The notes below the pieces were generated by a model, which did no database searches, was not told the DNA's origin, and saw only the letters and a program-made list of their open reading frames with translations. A DNA stretch of 64,000 nt from Deltaproteobacteria bacterium (GTDB lineage Bacteria; Desulfobacterota; Desulfuromonadia; Geobacterales; DSM-12255): positions 1 to 64,000 of the forward strand of contig JAJZTK010000004.1 in NCBI GenBank assembly GCA_021849045.1, given 5' to 3'. The translations under genes and the position numbers were made by a program. Below are positions 8,164-46,066 of this stretch, one piece after another. The first letter of the stretch is position 1. The number at the start of each line of letters is the position of its first letter.

Positions 8164-10593
8164 TCACGCCGCACCGGCCAACGGCTGTCTGATTGCCGAG
8201 TCGCCGGCCGGATTGAGGATGGTGCTGTAGGTTTCGGTGCTGTCCGGCGCTTTCTGCACGGTGAACGCACGGGCGTTTTTACCCATTCGATCGAGTACCA
8301 GCCGGTCCGCCGCCACTCCGGCTATCGACCTTACCAGGCTTTCCCGGTCACCCGCCTGAAACACTACCCCGGTCTCTCCGTCCACCATCAACTCCCTGGG
8401 GCCGCCGGCATCGGAGACAATGACCGGCAGGCCGGAGGCTTGCGCTTCCAGGACCACGTTACCGAAGGTGTCGGTGGCGCTGGGGAAGACGAAGAGATCG
8501 GCCGAGGCATACGCCCGCTGCAGCTCTTCGCCCTGCATGAAGCCGGTGAAGTGGACGGGAAAACCGGCCAGGAGTCTCTCCATCTCCTCGCGGTACGGAC
8601 CGTCGCCAATGATTATGAGAGACAGGTCCGCGTTGCTGTTCATGAGTACCCGGAACGATTCGGCGAGCAGTTCGAGTGATTTCTCTTTTGAGACCCTTCC
8701 GACATACAGGAGCTTGGTGGCACCATTGACGCCGCGTCCCTCCCAGTAGCGAGGCGTTTTCCTTGTCGGCGTGAACAGGTCCGTATCCACCCAGCGGGGG
8801 AGGGGCTGCATCTTGTCCGCCGGCAGGCCGTGCGACAGCAGCTGTTCCCGGGTTCCCGACGAAGGGACCATGACCTCTTCCATCTGGTTGTAGAACCAGA
8901 TCATGTAGCTCCAGGCGGCCTGTTCCAGGAATTCGTCGTCGGTGAGGCTCCGGACGTACTGGGGGATATCGGTGTGGTAGGTGCCGGCCACCGGAATATC
9001 CATCAGCCGGCCGATCAAAAGGCCTAAGAGCCCCACCGTGCCCGGCGTGCTGACGTGAATACGGGTGATCTCCTCGCGCTCGATGAAATCCATGACATCG
9101 AGGATCGGCGGAAAACTGAGTTTCAGCTCCGGGTACTCGGGGAGCACGAAGTCACCCACGGCATTGAACTTCTTCACCCCTTCCATTCCGTTGTCCGGTT
9201 CTGTCCCGGAGGTAACAACCGTCAGTTGAACACCCCTGTCCTGAGCGGTCTTGATGAGCCGCCGGATGGTGATCGCCACACCGTTGATCTCGTCCAGGGT
9301 ATCGGTGAATAGGGCTATCTTCTCCGTCGCTTTCCGGGGGGCCGCATCGGGAAGGCGCTCTGCGATCTCCTGGATCAGCTCCTTGCTCTTGTGCTGGTGG
9401 TGGAAGGCGAGGTAGTAAGGGGAGATCAAGAGGTGTACCAGGCCGATCGTGCCGACGGTGTTGAGGTAGTCGAAGAAGCCGGCATTCAACGGCAGGGACA
9501 TGAATCGCTTGGCATAGACGTAGAGGATTCGGTTTGCCAGCCGGCTCGTCACGGCGAAGATCTTCCGGTTCTGGTCGGCATGCCTGATGCCGTCCAGAAA
9601 GGCCGCATCGTTCAGGAGCGCTCTCGCCTCGCTGTCGAGGATATCCTCGAAGCTCCGGTCGGACGCGCTGCGGGAGGCGGGGAGGTTCTTCCGGATGAAG
9701 AGCCTGACCTTGTCGGTAAGGGACATGGTATCGGTGCCGACGTTGAAGAATCGGTCGAGAAGCGCGCTGACGAACGGCGTCGAACTGCGGCGTCTATCGC
9801 CGAAACGCTCCTTGTAAAAGCTGTGGGCAATGCCGTACATGCTGTGGGCCATGGTCAGCGGCCCGCCATCATCCCCATCTGCCGTACTCTTCCCCTCCAG
9901 CACGGCACCAATGAAGTCGCTGGCCGATGCTCCCCGGCTGGCGACCGTATATGCCTTTGCTATGAACAGGCCGCCATGGTCGTCGGAGCCGCCGACCATT
10001 CCCTTGACCCAGGGGTGGAGACCATACGGCTGGAGGTCGTGCTTGTCGGCCAGCCGTTCGATCGTCTCCTGGTCAAGTGACGTAACCAGCTGCTTCGTGA
10101 AGTCGTTGAAACGGCGGGCACGGCAGCCGTTCTTCACCTCGATGGTGGTGAAGAGGAGCAGGCTTTTTTCAATGATCTCCACCGTCAGCTTGTCGTTCTG
10201 GGCGTAGAGCGGATGGGCCAGGAAGTGGGCGATCTCTTCGACCTGGAGAAAGGCGACCAGATCGTAAACATTCTTCCGAGCCCGCATGATCTCCCGAAAC
10301 TGGGTCTCGGAGATGTTCAGGACAACCACATGGGTCTTGCAGCCGTTTTCCGGGAAATGGGCCGTGATCTCCGCACTGATGAACGTCTGCGGCAGGTGGG
10401 CGATTTCCAGCGCCCCATTGATGGAGTTGTGATCGGTGATGGTGACGAAGTCCATTCCCCGTTCGCGGGCTATCCGGTAGAGATGCTGGGGCGAGGTGTA
10501 GCTTTCGGGGCAGTTGAACTTGCGCATGGCCCAGTAGGTGGGCTTGTTTGAGTGGCTGGAATGGACATGAAGGTCTGCTTTGTGTAATTTCAT
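8164..10593 (-). CDS. PHP-domain phosphoesterase fused to GT4-family glycosyltransferase
   Basis: N-term MKLHKADLHVHSSHS...DFVTITDHNSINGA (PHP); C-term ALFTDTLDEINGVAITIRRL, AGTYHTDIPQYV, FPSATDTFGNVVLEAQASGLPVIVSDAGGPRE (GT4, SqdX/MgtA-like). Confidence 0.85.
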   Translation of the reverse strand: MKLHKADLHVHSSHSNKPTYWAMRKFNCPESYTSPQHLYRIARERGMDFVTITDHNSINGALEIAHLPQTFISAEITAHFPENGCKTHVVVLNISETQFREIMRARKNVYDLVAFLQVEEIAHFLAHPLYAQNDKLTVEIIEKSLLLFTTIEVKNGCRARRFNDFTKQLVTSLDQETIERLADKHDLQPYGLHPWVKGMVGGSDDHGGLFIAKAYTVASRGASASDFIGAVLEGKSTADGDDGGPLTMAHSMYGIAHSFYKERFGDRRRSSTPFVSALLDRFFNVGTDTMSLTDKVRLFIRKNLPASRSASDRSFEDILDSEARALLNDAAFLDGIRHADQNRKIFAVTSRLANRILYVYAKRFMSLPLNAGFFDYLNTVGTIGLVHLLISPYYLAFHHQHKSKELIQEIAERLPDAAPRKATEKIALFTDTLDEINGVAITIRRLIKTAQDRGVQLTVVTSGTEPDNGMEGVKKFNAVGDFVLPEYPELKLSFPPILDVMDFIEREEITRIHVSTPGTVGLLGLLIGRLMDIPVAGTYHTDIPQYVRSLTDDEFLEQAAWSYMIWFYNQMEEVMVPSSGTREQLLSHGLPADKMQPLPRWVDTDLFTPTRKTPRYWEGRGVNGATKLLYVGRVSKEKSLELLAESFRVLMNSNADLSLIIIGDGPYREEMERLLAGFPVHFTGFMQGEELQRAYASADLFVFPSATDTFGNVVLEAQASGLPVIVSDAGGPRELMVDGETGVVFQAGDRESLVRSIAGVAADRLVLDRMGKNARAFTVQKAPDSTETYSTILNPAGDSAIRQPLAGAA

Positions 10594-23859: not shown

Positions 23860-24828
23860 TTACAGTGCCTTGAGCTGTTGATCGACGACCTTCTTGGGAA
23901 GCGGCAGAAAGCCGTCCTTGACGACGATCTCCTGGCCTTCCTTGGAGAGAATGAACTTGAGAAACTCCGCCTGGACCGGGGGAAGCGGCTTGTTCGGCTC
24001 TTTTACCACGTAAATATAGAGCATCCGACCAAGGGGGTATTTGCCGCTCAGGACGTTTTCATAGTTCGGAGCATAGGCCTCTGCACCGTCCTTCTCGGCA
24101 AGGGCGATCGCCTTCACCCCGGAGGTCCGGTAACCGATCCCGGAGTATCCCATACCGTTCCTGTCCTTGGTCACCCCTTGCACGACCGAGGCGGAGCCGG
24201 GCTGCTCCTTGACGGTATCCTTGTAGTCACCCTTGGCAAGGGTGTGCTCCTTGAAGTAACCATAAGTGCCGGAGGCGGAGTTACGACCATAGAGGCTGAT
24301 CGGCTGCTTGGCGAGCTTGCCGGTAACTCCCAGTTGATCCCAGGTGGTGATGTCAGTCGAATGGCCACGCTTGCGGGTCTTGGAAAAGGCGGCGTCGACC
24401 TTGTCGAGGGAAAGACTTTTGACCGGGTTGTCCTTGTTCACGAACACGGCCAGTGAGTCAAGAGCCACGCCGACTTTGGTCGGCTTGAAGCCGTATTTTT
24501 TTTCGAACTGGTCGATTTCGCTGCTTTTCATCTCGCGGGACATGGGACCGAATTGGGCCGTGCCTGCGATAAGGGCCGGCGGCGCCGTGCTGGATCCCTT
24601 ACCTTCAATCTGGAGGTTCACGTTGGGGTATTTTTTGTGGAACCCCTCGGCCCACATGGTCATCAGGTTGTTGAGGGTGTCGGAACCGATGCTGTTCAGG
24701 TTGCCTGAGACACCGGCAGTCGATTTGTACTTGGGCAGCTTGGCATCAACCTTGAGCGCTTCCGCTGCAGCAAGGCTGACGGTAGCCAGTAGGCACGTCG
24801 CCACAATCGAGCTGATTTTCTTGATCAT
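23860..24828 (-). CDS. pstS: Phosphate ABC transporter substrate-binding protein
   Basis: SIGSDTLNNLMTMWAEGFHKKYPNVNLQIEGKGSSTAPPALIAGTAQFGPMSREMK. Confidence 0.95.
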   Translation of the reverse strand: MIKKISSIVATCLLATVSLAAAEALKVDAKLPKYKSTAGVSGNLNSIGSDTLNNLMTMWAEGFHKKYPNVNLQIEGKGSSTAPPALIAGTAQFGPMSREMKSSEIDQFEKKYGFKPTKVGVALDSLAVFVNKDNPVKSLSLDKVDAAFSKTRKRGHSTDITTWDQLGVTGKLAKQPISLYGRNSASGTYGYFKEHTLAKGDYKDTVKEQPGSASVVQGVTKDRNGMGYSGIGYRTSGVKAIALAEKDGAEAYAPNYENVLSGKYPLGRMLYIYVVKEPNKPLPPVQAEFLKFILSKEGQEIVVKDGFLPLPKKVVDQQLKAL

Positions 24829-24902
24829 TCCTTTGATCTCCCATTGGTTTAAGTTACCCGAGTTCACTCGGACGCACTATAGCGAATAAGTGCTACAAAT
24901 CC

Positions 24903-24930
24903 GTTACGACTGCGTAGTGGTTCTGTTAAA
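24903..24930 (+). promoter_or_regulatory. Candidate Pho-box-like 11-bp repeat array upstream of pstS
   Basis: GTTACG-N5-GTAGTG-N5-GTTAAA at exact 11-bp period in the phoR/pstS intergenic region. Confidence 0.35.
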
Positions 24931-24933
24931 GGT

Positions 24934-26715
24934 TCAGGAACTGACTGCCTTTTTGAGGGAAAAGGTAAAGGTAGTCCCCTGGATCGGGTTGTTGGCGACA
25001 CGGACGGTGCCACCGTGCAGTTGTACGATATGCTTGACAATGGACAGACCGAGGCCGGTCCCCCCCTCGTCCCTGCTTCTGCTGGCATCTACCCGGTAAA
25101 AACGTTCAAAGATCCGGGAGATACTCTCGGGAGGGATACCCGGGCCGGTGTCAGAAACCGACACGTTCAGTTGACCCTCCTCCTCGGCAACGGTTATGGA
25201 GACGCTGCCTTCGGCAGGGGTGTATTTAATGGCATTATCCAGGAGATTGACCAGTACCTGTTCCAACCGGCCCTGGTCTGCCAGAACCTGCGGGAGCTCA
25301 CCGGTCGGTGGGATGACGGTGATCTGTTTGGCCGCTGCCTTGGCTTCCAGCAGGGAGCAGGAGCGGCGGATGGTACCTTCAAGGGAAATCTTCTGCAGCT
25401 GCAGGGAAAAGGTTGCCGACTCCAGTTCGGAGAGGCTCAGCAGGTCACCGATCAGGCTGGCCAGTCGCTCGGCATGGTTCTGGATAATCTCGACGAACCG
25501 GATGGCACGCGTGGGGTCCTGGGAGATCACCCCATCCAGGAGCGTCTCGGCGTACCCCTTGATGACCGTAACCGGGGTGCGCAGTTCGTGGGAAACATTG
25601 GCGACAAAATCCTTGCGTACTTTTTCCAACCGCTTCATGTCGCTGATATCGTGGAAGACCGCCACCACCCCCCGTAACTCCTCACCGGTTTGAAGCGGTA
25701 CCCAATGCGTGCGGATCGTCGTCTCCACCGGCATCTGGATGGTTATTTCCTCCTGCAGTTCGTTTCTGGTCCGGGTTACCAGCTTGTAGGAGTCATTGAG
25801 TGTCGGGTGGCGGGAGATGTCGATCAGCGGTCTGCCGACAATGGTGTCGTGCACCCCGAACAGTCCGCAGAAGGCGGGGTTCACGAGGGAAATGGCACCC
25901 TTGCCATCCGTAACCATCAGTCCTTCCCCCATGCCGCGCAGGATGGCATCCAGACGGTCCTTTTCCGACGAGAGCCTGCTGAGCTCGTTTTCCAGTCGCC
26001 CGGCCATTTCGTTCATAACCCTGGCCAGGTCGCCAAGTTCATCGCGCCATTCCACGGGCAAGCGACGGTGAAAGTTGCCACGGCCGATCTCGGCGGCAAT
26101 GGCTGCCACCTGTCGCAATGGCCGGGAAGTGAGTTGAGAAAGGAGTGTGCTGAAGACAACGGCCAGGGCCAGCGCTACCAGCAGGCTGATCCCCATGGTC
26201 GTTTCCATGCCATCAGTAGCTTTTTTAACCACCACCGTCAGGGGGAGCGCCAGGCGCACAATAGCTCCCTGTGTCGCACCAACAGTCAGTGGGACTGCTG
26301 CGTAGAGCATGTCGGTCCTGAGGGTTGCCGAGTAGCGGGTGGCACTGCCGGTGCCCGATCGCCGGGCCTCCAGCACCTCCGGTCGGGTAGCGTGGTTATC
26401 CAGGGCTGTCAGACCCTGCTCGGGTACCTCCGAGTCGCCGACCACCCTGCCATCCGGAGCAATTATGGTCACCCGGGCATTCACTGTTCGACCAATCAGT
26501 GTTGCCACACGCGGCGCGTCGCGGTGCAGGTCGGCAATCTCTCGGCCGGCCACGACTGACGCCAGTCTGACTTGGTTGACCAGGTTGTCCCGCTGGGTGG
26601 CAATGATTGAGGTGGGAAGGGCGTGGTGGAGATACCCATAGAGTGTCCCGGCCATAACTGCCAGCAGCAGGAGGTAAGTGGCCAGCAGTTTGGCGCGGAT
26701 CGAGAATATCATCAT
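24934..26715 (-). CDS. phoR: Phosphate regulon sensor histidine kinase (HAMP-PAS-HisKA-HATPase)
   Basis: FVANVSHELRTPVTVIKGYAETL, DNAIKYTPAEG, DEGGTGLGLSIVKHIVQLHGG; adjacent to phoB and pst. Confidence 0.9.
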   Translation of the reverse strand: MMIFSIRAKLLATYLLLLAVMAGTLYGYLHHALPTSIIATQRDNLVNQVRLASVVAGREIADLHRDAPRVATLIGRTVNARVTIIAPDGRVVGDSEVPEQGLTALDNHATRPEVLEARRSGTGSATRYSATLRTDMLYAAVPLTVGATQGAIVRLALPLTVVVKKATDGMETTMGISLLVALALAVVFSTLLSQLTSRPLRQVAAIAAEIGRGNFHRRLPVEWRDELGDLARVMNEMAGRLENELSRLSSEKDRLDAILRGMGEGLMVTDGKGAISLVNPAFCGLFGVHDTIVGRPLIDISRHPTLNDSYKLVTRTRNELQEEITIQMPVETTIRTHWVPLQTGEELRGVVAVFHDISDMKRLEKVRKDFVANVSHELRTPVTVIKGYAETLLDGVISQDPTRAIRFVEIIQNHAERLASLIGDLLSLSELESATFSLQLQKISLEGTIRRSCSLLEAKAAAKQITVIPPTGELPQVLADQGRLEQVLVNLLDNAIKYTPAEGSVSITVAEEEGQLNVSVSDTGPGIPPESISRIFERFYRVDASRSRDEGGTGLGLSIVKHIVQLHGGTVRVANNPIQGTTFTFSLKKAVSS

Positions 26716-27386
26716 GCCTCCATTTTGTAGCCGAAACCGCGCACGGTCTTGATCAGGTCGCCGGCCATTCCCAGCTTGTTCCGCAGGCGAGTGATGTGTG
26801 TGTCCACGGTCCGGGAATCGGCCGTATGGCTGTACCCCCACACATCCCTCAGGAGGGAATCACGGCTCTGCATCCTTCCGAGACGTTCGGCCAGGGTGAG
26901 CAGGAGCTTGAATTCCGTAGTGGTCAGGCTCACCTCTTCGCCGGTCACCGCCACCAAGTGCCGGGAGGTATCGATGACCAGATTCCCTATACTGATGATC
27001 TTGGCGTCCGATTGCTCCGGCGAGGTCCGACGAAGAATCGCCCTGATCCTGAGCAACAGCTCCCGGGTGGAGAACGGCTTTACCAGGTAATCGTCGGCCC
27101 CCACCTCAAAGCCGACTACCCGGTCGATCTCCTCACCTTTGGCCGTCAGCATGATGATCGGGATGCCGACCGTGGCGGACTGCTTGCGCAGGAGCTTGCA
27201 GACCTCGGTACCGTTCATCTCGGGCAGCATCAGATCAAGGATCACCAGGTCCGGCAGATCGCTGGTCACCCGCTCCAGGCCGGCCTTGCCGTCCAGTGCG
27301 ATGCTGGTCTGGAACCCTTCCTTCTCCAGGTTGAAGGCCAAAAGCTCGGCCCGATCCCGCTCGTCTTCGATGATTACGATTTTCAT
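26712..27386 (-). CDS. phoB: Phosphate regulon response regulator (OmpR family)
   Basis: VIIEDERDRAELL...LVILDLMLPEMNG...KPFSTRELLLRIRAILRR; winged-helix C-term SRTVDTHITRLRNKLG. Confidence 0.92.
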   Translation of the reverse strand: MKIVIIEDERDRAELLAFNLEKEGFQTSIALDGKAGLERVTSDLPDLVILDLMLPEMNGTEVCKLLRKQSATVGIPIIMLTAKGEEIDRVVGFEVGADDYLVKPFSTRELLLRIRAILRRTSPEQSDAKIISIGNLVIDTSRHLVAVTGEEVSLTTTEFKLLLTLAERLGRMQSRDSLLRDVWGYSHTADSRTVDTHITRLRNKLGMAGDLIKTVRGFGYKMEA

Positions 27387-27427
27387 GGGTCACCTATGGT
27401 GTTTTAGGGTAACCGTAGCAAACCAAT

Positions 27428-27466
27428 GTTACAAACAGGTGACCGTTAAGGTGAGACTTTGTGAAT
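27428..27466 (+). promoter_or_regulatory. Candidate Pho-box-like repeat array upstream of phoB
   Basis: GTTACA (27428), GTGACC (27439), GTGAGA (27451), GTGAAT (27461); overall 3 x 11 bp, one unit shifted by 1. Confidence 0.35.
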
Positions 27467-27617
27467 TATAACGATTATTCCCGGCAATACCCCATGATCA
27501 CGATGTTTTCAGTTCCAAGGCAGGCTTTGCAGTTTCAACATACCTTTTTCCCGACTGCAACACAGGTGTAACGACCCTGTGGGAGAATGCCGTGCAAACA
27601 GATGGAAGGAGGAACCG

Positions 27618-28697
27618 ATGAGAGCTGCTTTGATGCCACTGGTTGAACGGACCATCCGGAGGAACCAGGTCGTGCTGAAAGTTACCGGCAAGGCCACCGC
27701 AATGCTGCGCAACCTGTCCCTGAAGCCGTATACGCCGAAGAGACGTACCCGCGAGTTCACTGCCGCTAATGGCCTGCCGAGCCTGCATGCGGTCAGAACC
27801 ACCATTTTCCGGGAGAAGGGGGAGGGGACCATACCGACCATCGTTATCGCCGGTTTTGTCCCCGACGCCACCGAGGTGATCGAGTTTCAGCGCCCGCTCC
27901 TCAAGGAATTCGGCTCCATCTACTATCTGAACTATCCCCGCACCGGCTTTTCCCTCCCCCTGTTCTTTGCCCAACTGGCCGATCTGGTGGAGGAGATCAA
28001 CCGTCAGGGTGAGCGTCCGGTACTCTTCGGCGTCAGCTTCGGTGCCGGCCTCATCGTCAAGTTCATGCACGAGGCCTTCCCCCATGAAAAGCTGCAGATC
28101 AGGGGGATAAGTCTGGTAAGTCCGGTACTCTGCAAAGACGACCTGGTCCGGCCAGGGGGGGAGAAAGGCGGTGGCGTCAGGATGCTGGAGAGCAACCTGC
28201 GTCGCATCCTGCAGGCTCGGTCCGACGACAAAAGCGGCATCGAGCGGCAGATCGAGCGGGCTCGGCGCGGCTTCGTCGGCCTGTTCGAGGCCGGCGCCGG
28301 TAACCGGCGGCTGACCGGCCGGCACCTGGCCATCCGTAAAAAGATCTTCGACGTCCTGGAAAAGACCCCGGCCATTGGGGGGTACGAACGGGTCCTGGCC
28401 CTGCAATCGTTTCAGGAACCGGGTGACGGGCCTCTGTTCGGCGGGCCGGTTCTGACTCTGCTGGCAGAGGCAGAGGAGAACCTGCTGGTGCCGACCTCTC
28501 CGACTCTGGCCCTTTGCCGCGACCGTGCATGGTTCAATCGTTTCTTTCCCCATGGGATCTGCCGCCGTGTCTCATCCGGTACTGACGACGACCCGGTTGC
28601 CCACGCCTCGCTGATCTTTCACCATCAGCATTACAATCCACTGCTTGCGTCATGGTACAACAGGCTGACCGCTCCCAAGCTGTTTGCTGCCATCTGA
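27618..28697 (+). CDS. Alpha/beta hydrolase-fold protein
   Basis: TIVIAGFVPDATEVIEFQRPLL, VLFGVSFGAGLIVKFMHE nucleophile elbow (GVSFG). Confidence 0.65.
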   Translation: MRAALMPLVERTIRRNQVVLKVTGKATAMLRNLSLKPYTPKRRTREFTAANGLPSLHAVRTTIFREKGEGTIPTIVIAGFVPDATEVIEFQRPLLKEFGSIYYLNYPRTGFSLPLFFAQLADLVEEINRQGERPVLFGVSFGAGLIVKFMHEAFPHEKLQIRGISLVSPVLCKDDLVRPGGEKGGGVRMLESNLRRILQARSDDKSGIERQIERARRGFVGLFEAGAGNRRLTGRHLAIRKKIFDVLEKTPAIGGYERVLALQSFQEPGDGPLFGGPVLTLLAEAEENLLVPTSPTLALCRDRAWFNRFFPHGICRRVSSGTDDDPVAHASLIFHHQHYNPLLASWYNRLTAPKLFAAI

Positions 28698-28715
28698 ATT
28701 ACAAGGATCGCTTTC

Positions 28716-30371
28716 ATGCACCATCTTCTGAGACACGTGGCATCCCCCCTGGTCAAGCAGGGGGCCGGGCTCTTTGCCAAACGGTTTGAACGTCGGGACC
28801 CGCTTGCTGCCCAGCAGGCACTCTTTGCCATGCTGGTCCGCCAAGCCGCTTCGACCCGTTTCGGCAGCGACCATGGCTTCGCCGAACTGGTAAAGCTTCC
28901 CTATCCCCTGGCCTACGAACGGTTCAGGCGCCAGGTGCCGATCAGAACCTACGCCGACTTCTGGCAAGAGTACTTCGGCCCGTGCTTCACCGACGACGGG
29001 CGAGGGAAAAGGCTGCTCCTGGACGACGTGACCTGGCCGGGACGGATTCCGCTCTTTTGCGAGACCTCGGGCACCACGGCCCCCACCAAGTTCATCCCCT
29101 TTTCCCGGGAGATGTTCGCCGCCAACAAGCAGGCTGCATTCGATCTGACGACCAACTACCTGGCCCGCACCCCCGACAGCCGGCTGCTGAACGGTCGTCT
29201 GCTCTACATGTCCGGCAGTACCCTGCTCAGCTCACTGGGAGACGATATCCGGAGCGGCGACATGAGCGCCATCACCCTGCGCTTCGCCCCATCGTTCCTC
29301 CGTCCATTCGTGGCCCCGTCCCTGGAGGTATCGGCCCTGCCGTGGGAAGAGAAGCTTGACGCCATGGCTGCGCTTCTCCTCGCCAACCGCGACATTACCG
29401 GCATTTCCGGGGTACCGCCATGGATACTGCTGCTGCTGAACCGTTGTCGGGCACTGGGAAAAGGGGAGGTGCCGGAACTGTTGCCCGGCCTGGAATTGAT
29501 CATTCATGGCGGCACCAGCATGAAACCGTACCAGCGGGAGTTCGCGGAACTGTTCGGGAGTAAACAGCCGAACTTCCTGGAACTGATGCCCTCATCGGAA
29601 GGTTTCATGGGGTTTCAGGTGCCAGGCGAGCGGGAGATGCGGTTTACCCCCTACTATGGCGTTTTCTTCGAGTTCGTACCCTTTGCCCAACTGGACGACC
29701 GCGGCCGGCCCGCCGCCGGTGCCATGGCAGTACCTCTGGAAGAGGTTCAGGTAGGAGAGCGGTATGCCGTGCTGATGTCCACCTGTGCCGGTCTGTGGCG
29801 CTACCATATCGGCGATACCCTCCGCTTTACCGGGACTGAACCCCTGACGTTCGAATTCACCGGTCGCGACCGCTTTCTCGACCGCTTTGAGGAGAAGGTG
29901 ACGCAAGGGGAGGTGGAACAGGCCGTGGCAGAACTCAACACCATTGCCGGTGTCGAGGTGGCTGAATTCATTGTCGGGCCGGATATCGATGCCAGGCGCC
30001 ACCTTTGGGTCCTGGCAATGAAGGGGGTCGTTCCACAGGCTGAGAAGCTGGCACTTCTCCTCGACAACTACCTGATGATCCAGAACGCCGACTATGCGAC
30101 GTTCCGCAGTCAGGGCCGGGTCAACGCGCCGCTGGTACTGACCGTCGGCCAGGATCTGATCTACCGCTGGTCAAAGGAGGTGCGGGGTAAGCTTGGGGGG
30201 CAGAGCAAGATTCCCCACGTGGACCCGACGCTGGATGGCGAACTGGTGGGCAGTCTCGCCAGCTATGCAGGCTTCGGCGTATCTTCTGAATCGCAGGGTC
30301 GCCTTAGGATTGTCAGGGGGGCGAACCCTCAGGACAAGAACGAATTCGAATCGTTGGAGCGTGTGTCGTAA
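28716..30371 (+). CDS. GH3 auxin-responsive-promoter family (acyl-adenylate amido-synthetase-like) protein
   Basis: PLFCETSGTTAPTKFIPFSREMF, LELMPSSEGFMGFQ, LMSTCAGLWRYHIGDTLRFTG. Confidence 0.85.
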   Translation: MHHLLRHVASPLVKQGAGLFAKRFERRDPLAAQQALFAMLVRQAASTRFGSDHGFAELVKLPYPLAYERFRRQVPIRTYADFWQEYFGPCFTDDGRGKRLLLDDVTWPGRIPLFCETSGTTAPTKFIPFSREMFAANKQAAFDLTTNYLARTPDSRLLNGRLLYMSGSTLLSSLGDDIRSGDMSAITLRFAPSFLRPFVAPSLEVSALPWEEKLDAMAALLLANRDITGISGVPPWILLLLNRCRALGKGEVPELLPGLELIIHGGTSMKPYQREFAELFGSKQPNFLELMPSSEGFMGFQVPGEREMRFTPYYGVFFEFVPFAQLDDRGRPAAGAMAVPLEEVQVGERYAVLMSTCAGLWRYHIGDTLRFTGTEPLTFEFTGRDRFLDRFEEKVTQGEVEQAVAELNTIAGVEVAEFIVGPDIDARRHLWVLAMKGVVPQAEKLALLLDNYLMIQNADYATFRSQGRVNAPLVLTVGQDLIYRWSKEVRGKLGGQSKIPHVDPTLDGELVGSLASYAGFGVSSESQGRLRIVRGANPQDKNEFESLERVS

Positions 30372-35499: not shown

Positions 35500-36552
35500 C
35501 TATATCCGGTGCTCCTCCACATGAAAGTGCATGGTGGCCCCGGTTACCGTGCTTCTGCCCGTGTACAGGAATATGACCACCCACAGGAGTTCCAGGAGCA
35601 GTAAAGGTGTCGGTCCCCACAGGGCCGCAGCACCCTTCGCCAGCTCGGGCAAAGCCGCAGCCGGACCCTCCAGCAGCGGCAGGAGCAGCCAGCCATAGGC
35701 GATGCTGATCACCGCCATGAACTGGTACGCCGAGACGTTTCCCCCACCGCGATAGTCGTCACGCAGGAACTCGGAGAACACCCGCCACCCCTGGGTCACG
35801 GTCAGTGCCAGCAGAAAACTGGCCGAAAACATCCCCCTACCGAAGAGGGCTATCCCCACCAGGCCGCAGACGGTATAAATGACCGCGGTCATCCCTTGCA
35901 CCGGCAGGACCTTCACCCCTTCCAGGCTGCCGGCATAGGCGGCCTTCTTCGTGGCCCCGTAAAAGACCGTGCTGTACCTACCGAAGATCCTTGCCAGGAA
36001 AGGAGGGGCAGCGGTGAGCGGTTTGCCATAACAACAGCCGAAACTGAGGCAGGCCAGTCTGCCCAGCCCTTCGCCGAAGCCGTAGCCGATGGTGATGGCG
36101 GCGATGATTGCCGCTGCCGGCACCTCCACCCCCAACGACTTTCGGAGAAAGCTGCTGCCGGCCATGGCGACCCAGGGGGCGACCAGCGTGCCGACAAAAA
36201 CGGCACCGCCGACGGTGAAGGTGTTCGCCTTTCGTTCCACCAGGCGGGCCACCAGGCGGGAAGCGGGGACGCAGACCGCCAGCATCGCGAAGAGCATGGC
36301 AAAGCTGGCCCGGGCCGGCAGGCCGACTGCGGCGAAGAGGCCGAAGGCGATGCCGGTCGCCACGACGTAGGCATTGGCCGACAGGATGCCATACCAGGTC
36401 AGGTTCACACCGCGCCACGAACCGGCGTTGTCCTTGGTCAGGGGGACCGCTGCCGCGATCTGCCAGCGCTCGGCCGGCAGGACGCGGACACCCCACCAGA
36501 GATAGCCCGTGCAGCAGAGAGCCAGCAGGGCAACCAGAAACATATCGTTCAT
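35500..36552 (-). CDS. Prolipoprotein diacylglyceryl transferase (Lgt)-like membrane protein
   Basis: Multi-TM; GLGRLACLSFGCCYGKP, LPVQGMTAVIYT, FSEFLRDDYRGGG. Confidence 0.65.
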   Translation of the reverse strand: MNDMFLVALLALCCTGYLWWGVRVLPAERWQIAAAVPLTKDNAGSWRGVNLTWYGILSANAYVVATGIAFGLFAAVGLPARASFAMLFAMLAVCVPASRLVARLVERKANTFTVGGAVFVGTLVAPWVAMAGSSFLRKSLGVEVPAAAIIAAITIGYGFGEGLGRLACLSFGCCYGKPLTAAPPFLARIFGRYSTVFYGATKKAAYAGSLEGVKVLPVQGMTAVIYTVCGLVGIALFGRGMFSASFLLALTVTQGWRVFSEFLRDDYRGGGNVSAYQFMAVISIAYGWLLLPLLEGPAAALPELAKGAAALWGPTPLLLLELLWVVIFLYTGRSTVTGATMHFHVEEHRI

Positions 36553-37559
36553 ACGGCACCTCCCCGGGCGATCAGCGAGCGAACCTGCAGATCCGTTTCC
36601 ACCAGCGGGATGTTGAACCCCTGTGAGAACCGGCTTTTCACATCAACACGCCTCATATTTTGCAGCAGGTCGTCGGCAAATTCGATCCTCCCGGGCTGGA
36701 AGATGAGAATGTCGGTGCTGCTTCCCGGTCGATAGAGACTCTTTGGCTGTCCCTTGCGCAGAAACTGGCCGGTGGAGACCGGAACCGGGTCGGCGTACTC
36801 TTCGGTTGAGTAGCATTGGACGATCTCGCCGATCATCAGCGCCACCACCTCGATCATCGCCACCAGTCCGACCCGGGTTCCTCCCGGGACATCGGTGTCG
36901 ATGATCGTCACCACCCGGCGGTTTTTGGAGAAGGGAGTCGCCATCGCGACGACCGCGGCCGGATTGCAGGAATGGTAGGCGCCGTCCAGTTCATAGATAT
37001 CGCTGACAACACCGGCAACAGGGGTGTGGTTGTAATGGTACTTGTCCGGGGTCAGCCGGAAAACGGCGAAGTCCCCGCCGCTAAACCGGTCATGCCAGTT
37101 GGTTTTTTCACCGAGCAGTTCCTCGAAGGAAAAGAACTTCCCCTTGACTAAGACGCTGGAAGAGTCACGGAACGATCCAACCAGGACCCGCGCATCGGCA
37201 GGCGAGACCACGGCCCCGGTCTCTTCAGGCATGGGCCGGTGTTCCCAGTAACGGATCCTGCGCTCAAAGACCTTGCGCGGCGTATCCAGGCTCTCCGGCG
37301 GATCAAGGCACTCCGCAAGGTCGATGCCGCACTGCGACATGAATTCCTTCTGCCGCGAAACCTTGCCGATGAACGGCGCATCGTAGTTGACGAATGCCAG
37401 CAGATCGCTCATGCGGGCGCTGGTGAGGAGCCGGAACAGGATAGGTGCATTCTCCCTGGCGCCATGATACAGCAGCTTTACCAGGCGGTCAGCGATAAGC
37501 TTCTCGGTATGCACAGTGCCGGTTCGGCGTTCCACATACTGGTGCAACGACTGAATCAT
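36549..37559 (-). CDS. Phosphatidylserine decarboxylase family protein
   Basis: FAVFRLTPDKYHYNHTPVAGVV, FSKNRRVVTII, VGLVAMIEVVALMIG, LYRPGSSTDILIFQPG (pyruvoyl-site-like GSST). Confidence 0.75.
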   Translation of the reverse strand: MIQSLHQYVERRTGTVHTEKLIADRLVKLLYHGARENAPILFRLLTSARMSDLLAFVNYDAPFIGKVSRQKEFMSQCGIDLAECLDPPESLDTPRKVFERRIRYWEHRPMPEETGAVVSPADARVLVGSFRDSSSVLVKGKFFSFEELLGEKTNWHDRFSGGDFAVFRLTPDKYHYNHTPVAGVVSDIYELDGAYHSCNPAAVVAMATPFSKNRRVVTIIDTDVPGGTRVGLVAMIEVVALMIGEIVQCYSTEEYADPVPVSTGQFLRKGQPKSLYRPGSSTDILIFQPGRIEFADDLLQNMRRVDVKSRFSQGFNIPLVETDLQVRSLIARGGAV

Positions 37560-39997
37560 GAGATCATGTTCTCCATGGTACGTTTGGCGGCACGGCTGTC
37601 GTGATGGACGGAGAGCAGGAGCAGGTTGACGAGGTGAGTAAGGGTGCCGCTGTCGAGCCGCTCCCGGAGGAGGTCATCGCGGCATGCGGCCAGAAAGGAG
37701 CAGGCCCCGCCGGTGGGGAGGTGGTACAGAAACTGCCGTGTTTCCTCATCCCCCGCATCTGCCGATTGCTCCAGGCTGAGCAGGTCGTCTGCCAGGTAGC
37801 CGAGTGCTTCGACCAGATGTTCGTGACGCAGCCGTTCCCGGTAGTAACGTTCGGCACCACTGTTGAATTCCCCGGCGGTGACGGCCATCGGATTTTTTGC
37901 GCCGATCTCGTCCAGGATGCCGGCAGTCAGCCTGCCTGCCGCAGAATGCTCGTCCGGGTGCTCCAACCGACCTTCCAGGTCTGCCAGAGTCCCTTCGAGC
38001 CCAAGGATCTCCACCAGGTCCGCCCCTTCGTTCCGGATAAAGGCCACCAGGGCACGACGGTAGTCGGCCACCGTGACCCGCAGATAGCCGGGATAGCGAC
38101 GACTGGCACGCGTTTCCCTGGTCAGGGATAGAATCCGCCGCAGCAGGGTGTTGCCGGTCTGCTTGCGAACGAAAAAGGTGGGGATGCCGATGGCGGCAGC
38201 GAAAAAAATCTGCCGCCGCTCGCTCTCGATGGAAGGGTCGTCGGGGATATCACCATGATGCAACTCCCCCTTAGCCATCAGTTTGTAGGCCAGGGCCGTC
38301 ACCAGCAGTTGCAGATCTACCGCCCGCGCCATATCGGCTTCAAAGCGGGCAAAGAGACTGTAGTGGCGTCCCTCGAAGCCGGAGAAGCCCATGGCCCCGA
38401 ATTCCCGCAATTTGTAGAGCAGATAGACCGACATCTGACTGTCGAACACCCCGAGTTCGTTCAGGTCTTTGCGCAGCTTGTCACCGTTGCCCAGCCGGCC
38501 GTCCAGCGCCGGGCTGCGGGGAGTGCTGAGCAGGCAGACCAGGTAATCGATCAGTCTGAAATCCGGGACAAAGTCGCCCTTGAGTCCGAACATGCCGCTG
38601 ATCATCCGGTCGAGCCAGGGTGGGCCAAAGGGGGTTACCGGCTGGCCGAACACCGACAGGCTGGCTTTTTTCTTCCAACGCCGCCAGATCATGCGCAGGT
38701 GGGTATAGTCCAGTTCATGGGGGAGAAAGCCGAGGGCACGCTCGGGGTGGAAGTCGGTATAACCGAGCCGGTACGGGGCAGCGCTGTAACTGCCGACGAA
38801 CAGGGGAAGAAAATGCTCCACCTGCTTGATGGCCAGATCCCCCAGCTGCTTCTCGTTGCCTGTCGAAAAGCCGGAATCCCCGTTCGCCAGCAGTTTGCCA
38901 AGACGCTGGCTCCCCAGGCTGACGTGCGTGCCGTTATTGGCCAGGCTGACATTGGAGAGCGAAGGGAGTACCACCAGGTTGTTGACGATGATCCCCGCCT
39001 CGCGCAGCTTGGCGACGGCATTCAGTTGGCTGCGGGAAAGCACTTGGTGGCAGAGGTGCATGTACCGGTATTTGTCCTCCCCGCGGTCCCAGCCGGACAG
39101 GCAAGGGCTCATGAAGAGCTCCCGGTAGAAGGAGTCGGAGATCAGGCCGTTGAGCTCTTTCTGGCGGACCGGTGGATGGGGGGCAAAGTAGATGAGGGCG
39201 CGCTGGCCGTTCTCCCGCAGACAGAAATGTTCGTTGGCATACATCAGCAGCAGATGGGTGAAGAGAAACCTCTTGGCAGCTTCCCGGGCCAGGGCGGAAC
39301 CTGATCCCGTCTTTTTTCGCAGGGGGACCACGTGAAAAGAGAAGGTCTCGGGTGAGGTGTTGTCATTGAGGTAGTGCGCCATGAGACGCCGGCCGGTTTC
39401 GGCGACTTCGCGGGAAAGATCCGGCTGGCTCCCGAGGATGTCGGCCAGGGCCAGCTTGAGCAGATAACTGACCGGCAGGCGGAGCAGTTCCTCGCCATCG
39501 GGACCGACCGTCGTGAAGCGATTGGCGTCGCTGCGCCGTCCGGCAGCGACATTACGCTTATCAGCCAGCAGATCACGCTCGAACACCTGGGCGGCAAAGG
39601 TGGAGAGCACGCGGCGGGGGAACCGGACCCAACTGTTTTCCCATACCTGCTCATCGTTATCGGCGAGGAAACGCTCCAGGTCGGTGATCAGCCTCTTCGG
39701 CGCCTCGCCGGCTGCCGCACGCTTGGCAATATTGACAAAATAGTCCGAGTGCTCGATAAGCAGGGGCAGGTCAACGCTTTCCCGCCGACCGGCCACGGCC
39801 ACCTGCATTTCAGTCTCTGATCCTGCCGTAGCATCGTCAGAAGCAAACGGCAGCTGTTCGTAATCGGGCCTGCCGCTTCTATCTGACCAGCCGAGCCTGA
39901 TCATCAACTCCCGCATGGAGAGAAAGGGAGAGCCGGTGGCAGGGGGGCGCCCTTCTTGTTCTGGTGTGATCAATGTCAATGCTGTATTGTGATGCAC
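37556..39997 (-). CDS. Uncharacterised 813-aa protein
   Basis: Long ORF coupled by ATGA to the Psd-like gene; no domain recognised by eye. Confidence 0.7.
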   Translation of the reverse strand: MHHNTALTLITPEQEGRPPATGSPFLSMRELMIRLGWSDRSGRPDYEQLPFASDDATAGSETEMQVAVAGRRESVDLPLLIEHSDYFVNIAKRAAAGEAPKRLITDLERFLADNDEQVWENSWVRFPRRVLSTFAAQVFERDLLADKRNVAAGRRSDANRFTTVGPDGEELLRLPVSYLLKLALADILGSQPDLSREVAETGRRLMAHYLNDNTSPETFSFHVVPLRKKTGSGSALAREAAKRFLFTHLLLMYANEHFCLRENGQRALIYFAPHPPVRQKELNGLISDSFYRELFMSPCLSGWDRGEDKYRYMHLCHQVLSRSQLNAVAKLREAGIIVNNLVVLPSLSNVSLANNGTHVSLGSQRLGKLLANGDSGFSTGNEKQLGDLAIKQVEHFLPLFVGSYSAAPYRLGYTDFHPERALGFLPHELDYTHLRMIWRRWKKKASLSVFGQPVTPFGPPWLDRMISGMFGLKGDFVPDFRLIDYLVCLLSTPRSPALDGRLGNGDKLRKDLNELGVFDSQMSVYLLYKLREFGAMGFSGFEGRHYSLFARFEADMARAVDLQLLVTALAYKLMAKGELHHGDIPDDPSIESERRQIFFAAAIGIPTFFVRKQTGNTLLRRILSLTRETRASRRYPGYLRVTVADYRRALVAFIRNEGADLVEILGLEGTLADLEGRLEHPDEHSAAGRLTAGILDEIGAKNPMAVTAGEFNSGAERYYRERLRHEHLVEALGYLADDLLSLEQSADAGDEETRQFLYHLPTGGACSFLAACRDDLLRERLDSGTLTHLVNLLLLSVHHDSRAAKRTMENMIS

Positions 39998-40043
39998 GTC
40001 ATTCCTCGGAATTCGTCTTTAATGAACACGATACACTGTCTCT

Positions 40044-40082
40044 GTTAACGTACGGTTACAGAGAGGTGAAACGTTAGCAACA
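40044..40082 (+). promoter_or_regulatory. Candidate four-unit 11-bp repeat array
   Basis: GTTAAC-N5-GTTACA-N5-GTGAAA-N5-GCAACA at exact 11-bp period, between divergent operons. Confidence 0.4.
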
Positions 40083-40148: not shown

Positions 40149-40165
40149 GTTACAATTGTGTGAAA
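40149..40165 (+). promoter_or_regulatory. Candidate 11-bp repeat pair; similar to the 32285 site
   Basis: ATTGTTACAATTGTGTGAAAT versus ATTGTTACAGTTGTGTAACAAT. Confidence 0.35.
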
Positions 40166-41554: not shown

Positions 41555-42112
41555 ATGGCGACGATCATCATTCATCTGATCAGGCATGCTGAAGCAGTAC
41601 AAAGGGTACCCGGTGGGGTCGACGAGTTTCGCTACCTGACCTGTCGGGGCCGTTCGCGTTTCCGACGCGTGACGGCTACTCTCAAGAAACTCGGTATTGA
41701 TCCGGATTTCATCGTTACCAGTCCCAAAGTCAGAGCTATCCAGACGGCGGAGATTCTTGCCGAGGGGATCAGGTTCCGCGGCGAGGTTGTTGTCGCACAG
41801 CAGCTCGCAGACGACTTCCGGCTTGCCGGCCTGCGTGACGTGCTGATGAATTTCCCATCGGTACAGGAGATTGTTTTCGTCGGCCATGAACCGGACTTGG
41901 GGCACCTGACCACCGAATTGCTGTGTCTGTCGGGTGCAGCTACCATCAAGAAGGGTGGTGTTGTCTCGCTTCTCGTTACCTTGACGCACGGGTCACATTC
42001 CTCGGAATTCGTCAGACTCATTACTGGTGGTGGCAAGGTGGTGGAAAAGCGCGACAAGGGGATAGAGCGATTGCTGGGTATGCGCGAAAAAGCCGAAGAG
42101 GAGGGGGCATGA
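41555..42112 (+). CDS. SixA-like histidine phosphatase (phosphoglycerate mutase fold)
   Basis: IHLIRHAEAVQRVPGGVDEFRYLTCRGRSRFRR, FIVTSPKVRAIQTAEIL, VGHEPDLGHL. Confidence 0.8.
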   Translation: MATIIIHLIRHAEAVQRVPGGVDEFRYLTCRGRSRFRRVTATLKKLGIDPDFIVTSPKVRAIQTAEILAEGIRFRGEVVVAQQLADDFRLAGLRDVLMNFPSVQEIVFVGHEPDLGHLTTELLCLSGAATIKKGGVVSLLVTLTHGSHSSEFVRLITGGGKVVEKRDKGIERLLGMREKAEEEGA

Positions 42113-42159
42113 AGTCATTGCTCAAGGAGTTGCGGATGCAGCAGGGATTATTAGCATGA
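42109..42159 (+). CDS. 16-codon micro-ORF MKSLLKELRMQQGLLA coupling SixA to kinase 1
   Basis: ATG overlaps the SixA stop, TGA overlaps the next ATG; GAGGAGGGGG SD-like sequence upstream. Confidence 0.35.
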   Translation: MKSLLKELRMQQGLLA

Positions 42160-42845
42160 TAGTCAACCACGAGCGGGAATGCCTGCCCGGGAGGCTCATC
42201 GCTGTCGAGGGGCTGGATGGGTCCGGCAAGTCCACCCAGATCTACCTGCTGAAGCGCTGGCTGGAGATGAAGGGCTTGAAGGTGTTTTTCACCGAATGGA
42301 ATTCCTCGTTCATCGTGAAAAAGGCCACCAGTAAAGGGAAAAAACGACAGCTGCTGACCCCCACCACCTTCAGCCTCATCCACTGCACCGACTTTGCCGA
42401 TCGCTATGAGCGGCAGATTCTGCCGCTACTGAAAGCCGGCTTTTTGGTCCTGTGCGATCGCTATATGTACACCGCCTTTGCCCGTGATGCGGTTCGGGGC
42501 TGTTCCAAGCCTTGGCTGCACAAACTTTACAGCTTTGCCTGTCATCCGGACATCACCCTCTTTTTCAACACCCCGCTGCCGGTCGCCCTCAACCGCATCC
42601 TTGGAGGCAGGCCACAGCTGAAATACCACGAAGCCGGGCTGGATATGGGACTTTCCCACGACCCTTACGAAAGTTTCCGACTCTTCCAGGGGCGGATCTA
42701 TGAAGAATATCTGGCGATGAAGGACCGTTTCGACTTTGTCGAGGTCGATGGCAGTGCATCCATCGAAGAGCAGCAACAGCGAGTCAGGGAAATAATCACC
42801 GCCAGTATTGACCTGCCGCGCTACCGCTGCAGAACCCATAGCTGA
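42156..42845 (+). CDS. Thymidylate-kinase-like P-loop kinase (copy 1)
   Basis: LIAVEGLDGSGKSTQIYLLKRWLE, LVLCDRYMYTAFARDAVRG, AGLDMGLSHDPYESF. Confidence 0.75.
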   Translation: MIVNHERECLPGRLIAVEGLDGSGKSTQIYLLKRWLEMKGLKVFFTEWNSSFIVKKATSKGKKRQLLTPTTFSLIHCTDFADRYERQILPLLKAGFLVLCDRYMYTAFARDAVRGCSKPWLHKLYSFACHPDITLFFNTPLPVALNRILGGRPQLKYHEAGLDMGLSHDPYESFRLFQGRIYEEYLAMKDRFDFVEVDGSASIEEQQQRVREIITASIDLPRYRCRTHS

Positions 42846-42855
42846 GAGATATATC

Positions 42856-43536
42856 ATGCCTTTTTACGGAGAAGGAATCCCCGGTGTGGAGCTCTCGGAA
42901 CTGACCGGTCGCCTCATCGTCATCGAAGGAGCCGATGGTTCGGGCCGCTCCACCCAGATCGAAATCCTGCGGGATTACCTGGAAAACAAGGGGCACGCCA
43001 CGGTAAACGTCGGTCTGCGCCGTTCCACCCTGGTCTCGGAAGAGCTGAAAGAGGCCAAGGAAGGCAACATCCTCGGTGAAATAACCCGGAGCCTTTTTTA
43101 TGCCACCGACTTTGCCGATCAGTTGGAAAACCGGATCATTCCGGCGCTTCGGGCCGGCTTCATCGTCCTTGCCGACCGCTACATCTATACCCTCATGACC
43201 CGCGATATCGTCCGGGGCGCCGACCGGGAATGGGTCCGCTCCCTGTACGGCATTGCCCTGGTTCCGGACCTGGTCATCTACCTCAAGGTAAGCCCTCCTC
43301 AACTGGTGGAGAGAAACCTGCGCAAGAACTCCACCCTCGACTACTGGGAATCGGGTATGGACCTGGGACTTTCCCGTGACAGCTTTGACAGTTTTATCCG
43401 CTATCAGCGGATGATCCAGAAGGAGTTCGCCCTCCTGGAGGGGCAATACGGTTTCATCACCATCAACGGCAATCTTTCGGTGCGCGCCGTGGCCCGCGAG
43501 ATCAGCGCCCGCATGGTCAACATATTCGGCGAATGA
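42856..43536 (+). CDS. Thymidylate-kinase-like P-loop protein (copy 2, Walker A Lys to Arg)
   Basis: LIVIEGADGSGRSTQIEILRDYLE, IVLADRYIYTLMTRDIVRG, SGMDLGLSRDSFDSF. Confidence 0.75.
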   Translation: MPFYGEGIPGVELSELTGRLIVIEGADGSGRSTQIEILRDYLENKGHATVNVGLRRSTLVSEELKEAKEGNILGEITRSLFYATDFADQLENRIIPALRAGFIVLADRYIYTLMTRDIVRGADREWVRSLYGIALVPDLVIYLKVSPPQLVERNLRKNSTLDYWESGMDLGLSRDSFDSFIRYQRMIQKEFALLEGQYGFITINGNLSVRAVAREISARMVNIFGE

Positions 43537-43643
43537 TCGTTTGAAGCGAAAATGAAGTTGCGGGACGATCACCCCCTGATAAAGTGGGCCGATGCGTTGC
43601 CTGACCGTGAGCAGATTCCAGCAGTATCCGGAGATGATATTTG

Positions 43644-44528
43644 ATGATGCAGTTGAGCTCAAAAACGCACCTCTGGCTCGCTGCAAGGGCCATGCTGCAG
43701 GAGCGGGGCGATGATCTTTTCCGTCGCTGGGACCGTGCCCGCAGGAGCTTTGAGCTGGATGATATCCACGATCTGAGGGTTTCCTCCCGTCGTTTGAGAG
43801 AAGCCCTGGCCCTTTTCGGACCATGTTTCCCGGCGAAGAGCCTTTCCCGTGTTAGATCGCGAGTCAAACGGCTGACGAATATACTCGGCATCCTGCGCAA
43901 TACCGATGAAGCCATTCTGTATTTCACCGAGCTTGCTCCGTCACTCCCGACCGACAACATCGACAGTTTGAGAGGATTGCTGGACGAACTTGGAAATGAG
44001 CGGGACCGGGAACGCAAGAGTTTGAAGTCCGGGTTGAAGGAACTTGATCCCGTTTCGCTCAGGACACTTTTCTCCGAGGCCTGCAATCGTCCGCTCATTT
44101 TCGTTGAAACCAAAGTCGATCCTTTTGTGCCGATCCATCTCTTTCTGCGTGAAGCCATGACCGGGCACGAGGCGTCTGTGTGCGACCTGTTGCCTCAAGC
44201 GGTCATTGAGGCGAACGTGAATGCCCAGCATAAGTTGCGGATCGTTATCAAACATTTCCGTTACCGGTTCGAGTTGGCTGCACCACTGATTTCAAACGGT
44301 TTCAATGAGTTGCATGCCGTCTTCAGGGAATATCAGGAGGTTCTGGGCCGACTGCACGACCTGGATGTCTTTGCCGACCTGGTACGGGACCGGTTTGACG
44401 TTACGGCGGCCGGACCACTGCTTGCACGGATCGCCGAACAGCGCCATGATCAGTTCACAGCTTTTGAGCGGATGCTTGTCATAGACCCACTGGCTGACCT
44501 TGGCGAGCGGGTGCGGGGGCTTCTGTGA
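43644..44528 (+). CDS. CHAD-domain protein
   Basis: ELDDIHDLRVSSRRLREALALFG, KRLTNILGILRNTDEAI, HKLRIVIKHFRYRFE. Confidence 0.8.
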   Translation: MMQLSSKTHLWLAARAMLQERGDDLFRRWDRARRSFELDDIHDLRVSSRRLREALALFGPCFPAKSLSRVRSRVKRLTNILGILRNTDEAILYFTELAPSLPTDNIDSLRGLLDELGNERDRERKSLKSGLKELDPVSLRTLFSEACNRPLIFVETKVDPFVPIHLFLREAMTGHEASVCDLLPQAVIEANVNAQHKLRIVIKHFRYRFELAAPLISNGFNELHAVFREYQEVLGRLHDLDVFADLVRDRFDVTAAGPLLARIAEQRHDQFTAFERMLVIDPLADLGERVRGLL

Positions 44529-46066
44529 AAGGAAAGCGCCTGGCAGCCATCGACATCGGCACCAACTCGATCCGCTGTATTGTGGTCGAAGCTGATCAAA
44601 GGGGCAAGTTCCGCATTCTTGATGACGAGAAGGCGACGGTGCGTCTCGGTGAAGGTTTGAACGAGACCGGCATAATCGCTCCGGCTGCCTGGCAGAGGGC
44701 CATGGATGACCTCTCGCGTCTGAAGAAGATCATCGATGGGTACGGGGTGGGCGTTATCGAGGCGGTTGCCACCAGCGCCGTACGTAAGGCTGCCAATGGC
44801 AAGGCCTTCATTGCCGCGGTCAGGGACGGGGTGGGGCTGGAGATCAGGGCCATCAGCGGAGAAGAGGAGGCCGAGTTGGCCGCCCTCAGCGCCTTCAACA
44901 ATTTCGAGCTGGGGGGGGGGCGACATCTGCTGGTGGACATCGGTGGTGGCAGCCTTGAGCTGGTGACGACCGTTGGTCAGCACATTGAGGAGATCTTCTC
45001 GTTGGAGTTGGGGGCTGTCTACCTCACCGAAACCTTCCTTAAGGCCGATCCACTTCCTGCTGCCGATCTGCTGCGGCTGCGCCGGCATGTACGTAAGACC
45101 CTGAAACAGGCCTTCGCCGATGAACGGCCGATCATTCCCACATTTGTTGGTTCAGGCGGGACCATTACCTCCATTGCGGTCATGACCGCAATCAGCCGGA
45201 AGGAAGCCTATGGCTCGGTCCATGGGTACGAGCTGCTCCGGTCCGACGTGGTCCATATTCTGGCCATGCTCCTGCGCAAGAGTGTCAAGGAGCGGCGGGC
45301 CGTTCCCGGGCTTAACCCGGACCGGGCCGATATCATCGTGGCCGGCGTTGTGGTGATCGATGAATTGATGGAGTTCTGCCAGGCGAATATGCTCAAGGTC
45401 AACGAGCGGGGGATCAGGGAAGGGCTGATCCTTCGCGGGCTGCGAACGCACGGACTGATTCCCGGCGAGCGGAAGCCGCGCTCCTGGCGCGAGTCGGTGC
45501 TGGAATTCGCTGCTTCCTGCCACTATGATGAGAAGCATTCCCTGCAGGTTGCCCGGTTGGCGCTGGACATTTTCAAGGCCGTTGCCAAGCCGTTCAAGCT
45601 CGGCGATCGGGATCGCCATATCCTGGAAGCCGCGGCCATTCTCCACGATATCGGCTATTTCATCAACTACTCCAGCCACCACAAGCATTCATACCACCTG
45701 ATCCGCCACGGTGACCTGTTCGGGTTCACCCCGCGGGAGCGCGAGCTCATCGCCAACGTGGCCCGCTATCACCGCAAATCCTTGCCCAAGAAAAAGCACG
45801 AGACGTTCATGCGGCTCTCCAGCAGGGATCGGGAACTGGTCGCCAAACTCGGCGGAATACTGCGCCTTGCCGATGGTCTTGATCGGCGCCGCGTCAGTTC
45901 GGTCGTCACCATTGAGCCGCTCTTTTCCCCCTCCCGTCTCGTTTTGCGACTGCATAGTGACAGCGACATCTCGGTCGAAATCTTCGGTGGCAGCGCCAAG
46001 TGCGATCTGTTTCAGGAGTCATTCGGCCTCAAGCTTGTCCTGGAGCCAGCTTCAGCAAGACAGTAG
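44525..46066 (+). CDS. Ppx/GppA phosphatase with HD-type C-terminal region
   Basis: AAIDIGTNSIRCIVVEA, LLVDIGGGSLELV, AAAILHDIGYFINYSSHHKHSYHLI; GTG start overlaps the CHAD stop. Confidence 0.85.
   Translation: MKGKRLAAIDIGTNSIRCIVVEADQRGKFRILDDEKATVRLGEGLNETGIIAPAAWQRAMDDLSRLKKIIDGYGVGVIEAVATSAVRKAANGKAFIAAVRDGVGLEIRAISGEEEAELAALSAFNNFELGGGRHLLVDIGGGSLELVTTVGQHIEEIFSLELGAVYLTETFLKADPLPAADLLRLRRHVRKTLKQAFADERPIIPTFVGSGGTITSIAVMTAISRKEAYGSVHGYELLRSDVVHILAMLLRKSVKERRAVPGLNPDRADIIVAGVVVIDELMEFCQANMLKVNERGIREGLILRGLRTHGLIPGERKPRSWRESVLEFAASCHYDEKHSLQVARLALDIFKAVAKPFKLGDRDRHILEAAAILHDIGYFINYSSHHKHSYHLIRHGDLFGFTPRERELIANVARYHRKSLPKKKHETFMRLSSRDRELVAKLGGILRLADGLDRRRVSSVVTIEPLFSPSRLVLRLHSDSDISVEIFGGSAKCDLFQESFGLKLVLEPASARQ

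Follow-up and report, generated by a model that had tools for sequence, protein, structure and literature searches.

The known low-phosphate lipid pathways make glycolipids through PlcP/Agt, betaine lipids through BtaAB, and ornithine lipids through OlsBA, OlsF or OlsHI, and we know of none among them that employs an enzyme related to phosphatidylserine decarboxylase (Psd), prolipoprotein diacylglyceryl transferase (Lgt) or glutamate-cysteine ligase (GCS). Agt glycolipid remodelling has been reported in a sulfate reducer (PMC5193443), and the OlsH/OlsI ornithine-lipid pathway has been described in planctomycetes (PMC12493201). In this study we describe a three-gene module, encoding U813, Psd2 and Lgt2, in 64,000 nucleotides (nt) of DNA from a Geobacterales deltaproteobacterium with a genome of 4.3 megabases (Mb; assembly GCA_021849045.1, contig JAJZTK010000004.1, positions 1 to 64,000); this whole stretch is called the window. 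The locus resembles known phosphate-starvation lipid remodelling in its Pho-linked neighbourhood, its lipid enzymes, and the OlsI/OlsH-like pair and GT4 enzyme in the same window, but it differs in its Psd-like, Lgt-like and predicted GCS-like enzymes. We propose, with a probability near 0.75, that these three genes encode a Pho-linked pathway for a lipid headgroup. In a literature search covering papers outside subscription journals we found no paper linking Psd, Lgt and a U813-type ligase. The parts of the module are:

37556..39997, minus strand: U813, 813 amino acids (aa), of an unnamed family, with a predicted glutamate-cysteine-ligase-like (carboxylate-amine ligase) fold
39809..39823, minus strand: U813 motif 1, G59-S-E61-T-E63, invariant, on predicted strand 56-63; putative equivalent of GLERE (Glu27/Glu29) in E. 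coli GshA
39347..39364, minus strand: U813 motif 2, D212-N-T-S-P-E217, with D212/E217 invariant and a predicted strand at 217-219; putative equivalent of TTDFAEALLE in GshA
38918..38932, minus strand: U813 motif 3, G356-T-H358-V-S360, with G/H/S invariant, on predicted strand 357-363; putative equivalent of GVHYN in GshA
38366..38377, minus strand: U813 motif 4, F541-E542-G-R544, with F541/E542/R544 invariant, on predicted strand 539-546; putative equivalent of YIEVR in GshA
36549..37559, minus strand: Psd2, 336 aa, a phosphatidylserine-decarboxylase-family paralogue and predicted pyruvoyl enzyme
36714..36725, minus strand: GSST self-cleavage/pyruvoyl site of Psd2, residues 279-282, conserved in homologues
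35500..36552, minus strand: Lgt2, 350 aa, an Lgt-family membrane protein
36025..36063, minus strand: Lgt2 signature GRLACLSFGCCYG, which keeps Arg143 and has Cys in place of Asn146 and of Glu151 (E. coli Lgt numbering), in 84/84 sequences
35761..35784, minus strand: R257/E261/R264 of Lgt2, corresponding to Arg239/Glu243/Arg246 of E. coli Lgt (numbering via alignment to 5azb), in 84/84 sequences

The initial annotation of this DNA had placed three minus-strand open reading frames at the positions given here, joined at each junction by a 4-nt ATGA overlap (37556-37559 and 36549-36552) and carrying the motifs GSST, GCCYG and EFLRDDYRG. All of this was confirmed, and the motifs are conserved across relatives. 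The module is real and discrete. U813 is present in 25/58 Geobacterales genomes, and the operon types of Psd and Lgt accompany it in every one of the 25, nearly always adjacent (in one genome the run of module genes is interrupted by a contig end); the operon-type Lgt was found in 0/33 Geobacterales genomes without U813. A scan of 84,980 species genomes returned 269 stretches encoding U813 relatives. The 80 that were kept include metagenome-assembled genomes (MAGs) labelled Syntrophaceae, Desulfatibacillum, Desulfomonile, Acidobacteria, Nitrospira, Nitrospinae and Brocadia, with identities of 53-69% throughout. Gene order is retained as well, with Psd2 following U813 in 88 and Lgt2 in 85 of the 91 loci that offer enough room, so that the module is conserved as a unit; histidine kinases, the GT4 protein or a 732-aa protein sometimes intervene between its genes. 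In an even sample of the phylum U813 occurs in 32/297 genomes, as a single copy each and with no tail of weak relatives; it is a discrete, patchily spread family. Module carriers are mostly anaerobic soil and sediment bacteria, and cultured examples are Trichlorobacter thiogenes, Citrifermentans bremense, Geomonas silvestris and Desulfatibacillum alkenivorans. At one locus (L055:4707-7227) U813 lies in two pieces in different frames, which represents a frameshift or an assembly error.

U813 is the least familiar of the three proteins. Neither the single sequence nor a 46-sequence alignment, used as queries, gave a match in Pfam, NCBIfam or PDB sequences, and a viral structure library gave none either; isolated matches, such as those to DUF6164 and NifB, were single-member or marginal and were discarded. 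The AlphaFold model built from the 46-sequence alignment has a mean predicted local distance difference test (pLDDT) of 83.9 and a predicted template-modelling score (pTM) of 0.89. When this model was searched against PDB folds, the ten top matches were all glutamate-cysteine ligases, the best being GshAB (3ln6, E 0.004, probability 1.00), with E. coli GshA reaching a probability of up to 0.96; the Pup ligase/depupylase (PafA/Dop) of the same superfamily ranked lower. Four invariant motifs of metal/ATP/substrate type (ExE, D..E, H, ExR) lie on predicted strands in the same order as in GshA, a correspondence drawn after the fold match and compared by order along the sequence. The glutamate-cysteine ligases (GshA PF04262, GshAB, GCS2 PF04107) are the best fold matches of this full-length model and show the series GxExE, DxxxxE, GxHx(N/S) and ExR in the same order, but U813 differs from them in having no detectable sequence or profile similarity to PF04262, PF04107 or the solved enzymes, in its length of about 800 aa instead of about 500, and in its place within a lipid operon. 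Among 148 genomes sampled from the phylum none had a typical GshA, and none of 38 close relatives had GCS2. In our view U813 is probably a ligase of the glutamate-cysteine-ligase fold, the fold being supported but not secure. The initial annotation had suggested that the 813-aa protein could be the ligase component, and the better of two structure models supports it. Since many orthologues align only from residue 26-31, translation of U813 may in truth begin at Met28 (near 39916), and the protein would then have about 786 aa instead of 813.

Psd2 is more readily placed. It matches PF02666 (E 3.3e-40, 138 bits against a cut-off of 22) and shares with phosphatidylserine decarboxylase the GSST cleavage site and the Asp-His-Ser triad, whose elements SPAD, YHYNH and GSST are intact in nearly all of 98 homologous segments. 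Because these are kept, Psd2 should be an active pyruvoyl decarboxylase, with a substrate that carries a free alpha-amino acid. It differs from the housekeeping Psd in being a second copy that scores below the NCBIfam equivalog cut-offs, belongs to a separate clade and nearly always stands beside U813. The housekeeping gene (G000:C27) matches PF02666 better than Psd2 does and is followed by what reads as a CDP-alcohol phosphatidyltransferase-like gene. A housekeeping lgt is also present (G000:C260, 272 bits), and the idea that the window copies are the genome's sole psd and lgt was rejected; a third weak Lgt match (G000:C84) was set aside, being a fragment that contains a stop. Additional psd copies in three other genomes are of other types than the operon Psd. 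Two Geobacterales genomes encode a further divergent Psd-family protein of about 450-480 aa, with a signal-peptide-like N-terminus and GGSD in place of GSST.

Lgt2 matches PF01790 weakly but above the cut-off (E 2.1e-9, 37.5 bits against 24.9), and its score for the NCBIfam Lgt model is far below the cut-off. Arg143, Arg239, Glu243 and Arg246, all described as indispensable for transfer of the diacylglyceryl group (PMC4728403), are kept. In contrast, Asn146 and Glu151 have both become Cys, and His103 is replaced, mainly by Val/Ile/Ala/Thr, in essentially all 84 sequences. In E. coli Lgt all tested His103 mutants fail, as do E151A/Q, and the HGGL motif containing His103 has been proposed to bind the lipobox peptide (PMC4728403). 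The donor side thus seems preserved and the acceptor side altered, which suggests that Lgt2 is a diacylglyceryl transferase with a different, non-lipobox acceptor.

The link to phosphate comes from the upstream region of U813 and from the gene neighbourhood. The features concerned are:

40055..40071, minus strand: Pho-box-like 11-base-pair (bp) repeat site TTTCACCTCTCTGTAAC, with a third unit at about 40045
40149..40165, minus strand: second Pho-box-like site TTTCACACAATTGTAAC
26712..27386, minus strand: PhoB-like response regulator (PF00072 and PF00486)
8164..10593, minus strand: 809-aa protein with a C-terminal GT4 glycosyltransferase domain (Pfam) and a PHP-like N-terminus (PHP assigned by eye from an HxH/TDH motif)

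In gene direction the repeats read TTTCACCTCTC-TGTAACCGTAC-GTTAACAGAG around 40041-40071 and TTTCACACAAT-TGTAAC at 40149-40165. The 11-bp array mentioned in the initial annotation is real, though short; it is not among the calls of Tandem Repeats Finder. These TTTCACN5TGTAAC sites resemble PhoB boxes and are putative ones. The only two perfect occurrences in the genome lie upstream of U813, the pattern having been derived from these very sites. A search of the source genome for the repeat gave near-matches that lack clear phosphate genes; the Pho-box claim rests on the orthologous upstream regions instead. There, 30 of 80 regions upstream of U813 relatives reach a score of 11/12 or more with the generalised form of the pattern, TKTMAYN5TKTMAY, where shuffles give 4.3 and the upstream regions of other genes 8.9. 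Among 48 distant loci (0.77 Mb) a PhoB-like gene is found in 16 (17 matches) where about 0.4 would be expected from the 69 matches in 39 genomes (1.8 per genome), an enrichment of about 40-fold, and Pst components occur in 18. The window also encodes PhoR/PhoB-like and PstS/C/A-like proteins, PPK2, an OlsI-like hydrolase, an OlsH-like protein and the GT4 enzyme, and a Pho-box-like site with 2 mismatches (27428-27444) lies just upstream of the PhoB-like gene. The phosphate link at which the initial annotation hinted has thus been strengthened by both the neighbourhoods and the sites.

What might the three enzymes make? In the scheme we propose, U813 would act as an ATP-dependent carboxylate-amine ligase that couples an amine, for instance Cys, Ser or an aminolipid, with an amino acid, for instance Glu through its gamma-carboxylate. 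Lgt2 would then transfer the diacylglyceryl group of phosphatidylglycerol to this small acceptor and not to a lipoprotein cysteine, the glycerol-phosphate released in the step being recovered, and Psd2 would decarboxylate the lipid-linked amino acid at its alpha position, in the manner of Psd acting on phosphatidylserine. The product would be a phosphate-free, and probably phosphorus-free, diacylglyceryl lipid with an amino-acid or dipeptide head. We infer the substrates, the order of steps and the product, and this specific sequence of acceptor building, diacylglyceryl transfer and decarboxylation is tentative, at best somewhat short of even odds. Bolder still, and doubtful at present, is the idea of a hitherto unknown class of phosphorus-free membrane lipids, diacylglyceryl (thio)ethers of decarboxylated amino acids or dipeptides, which a new ATP-dependent ligase family would make together with a repurposed Lgt and Psd and which would stand in for phosphatidylethanolamine in anaerobic bacteria. 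The suggestion in the initial annotation of an uncharacterised lipid modification pathway is supported by the conserved unit and the separate housekeeping psd and lgt, the chemistry being a proposal. If true, a lipid pathway would have been assembled from enzymes not known to cooperate, in bacteria common in phosphate-scarce sediments, aquifers and wetlands; Lgt chemistry would have been redirected from proteins to small molecules; and lipidomics would gain a marker gene for amino lipids whose origin is not known. The scheme also offers a first testable role for the unnamed U813 family with its 269 homologous stretches in one genome scan.

Several observations weigh against this reading. The fold match of U813 is marginal (best E 0.004, low template-modelling scores), and a second, poorer model of a truncated Nitrospira-MAG orthologue (pLDDT 75) gave one weak GshAB match at rank 2 (E 1.2). 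Profile-profile comparison of U813 with 30 GCS2 (PF04107) loci and with E. coli GshA gave no signal. Elsewhere in the source genome, sequences close to the repeat pattern do not obviously stand before phosphate genes, and the loss of His103 and Glu151 could mean that Lgt2 is no longer a transferase. Instead of a glutamate-cysteine-ligase-fold ligase, U813 might be an enzyme or scaffold whose fold is yet to be solved, as the missing sequence matches in Pfam, NCBIfam, PDB and profile comparisons and the failure of the second model to reproduce the fold match would allow; given that the ten best matches of the better model are all glutamate-cysteine ligases and that the four motifs of catalytic type are invariant and keep the expected order, we hold this to be rather unlikely.

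Other explanations keep the lipid setting but change the chemistry. The amine of phosphatidylethanolamine or phosphatidylserine might be where U813 adds an amino acid, with Psd2 decarboxylating the result and Lgt2 handling the lipid, so that the product keeps its phosphate and alters surface charge. This ordinary headgroup modification would suit Psd2, whose nearest relative acts on a phospholipid, and with a gamma-glutamyl amide the alpha-amino acid would stay free for it to decarboxylate; the PhoB/Pst linkage and the Pho-box-like sites, however, favour phosphate sparing, and such a modification needs no diacylglyceryl transferase, which makes it unlikely. Less likely again is that the module serves phospholipid turnover in phosphate starvation, in which diacylglycerol released from phosphatidylglycerol by Lgt2 would go to the GT4 glycolipid enzyme, Psd2 would supply phosphatidylethanolamine, and the acceptor, a soluble thiol or peptide, would come from U813. 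Several genomes have the GT4 protein and its 732-aa neighbour inside the operon, and in others a Zn-dependent phospholipase C homologue follows it, whereas a GT4 protein lies near only 5/24 Geobacterales and 3/48 distant U813 copies, and U813, Psd2 and Lgt2 are inseparable. The initial annotation had also thought of lipid anchoring. In the lipoprotein sense this would make Lgt2 a second diacylglyceryl transferase for a special lipoprotein set, with U813 and Psd2 modifying the lipoprotein N-terminus. Although the Lgt fold (PF01790) and the transfer arginines are conserved, the His103 and Glu151 that E. coli Lgt needs (PMC4728403) are replaced, and no conserved lipoprotein gene accompanies the module in the loci compared, so that we regard it as very improbable.

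Beside the module, relatives of the 809-aa GT4 protein lie within the operon in five loci; from its sequence the protein is possibly a phospholipase-glycosyltransferase fusion, an analogue of PlcP-Agt. The 732-aa protein (14379-16577 in the window) has a signal-like N-terminus and no Pfam match; in Trichlorobacter and relatives its gene is part of the operon and adjoins the GT4 gene. In many Geobacterales (for example L041:4634-6154) the stretch downstream of Lgt2 encodes a membrane protein with DUF2062 and a protein resembling Zn-dependent phospholipase C (PF00882), both missing from the window. The phosphate island of the window (18348-30371) comprises PstA/PstC/PstS-like, PhoR-like and PhoB-like genes, then the OlsI-like hydrolase and the OlsH-like GH3 protein, the latter scoring 361 bits, under the NCBIfam cut-off of 620. 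A polyphosphate-type cluster at 41555-46066 encodes a SixA-like phosphatase, two unlike tandem thymidylate-kinase-family proteins, a CHAD protein and a PPX/GppA-like protein, and PPK2 lies at 52519-54012.

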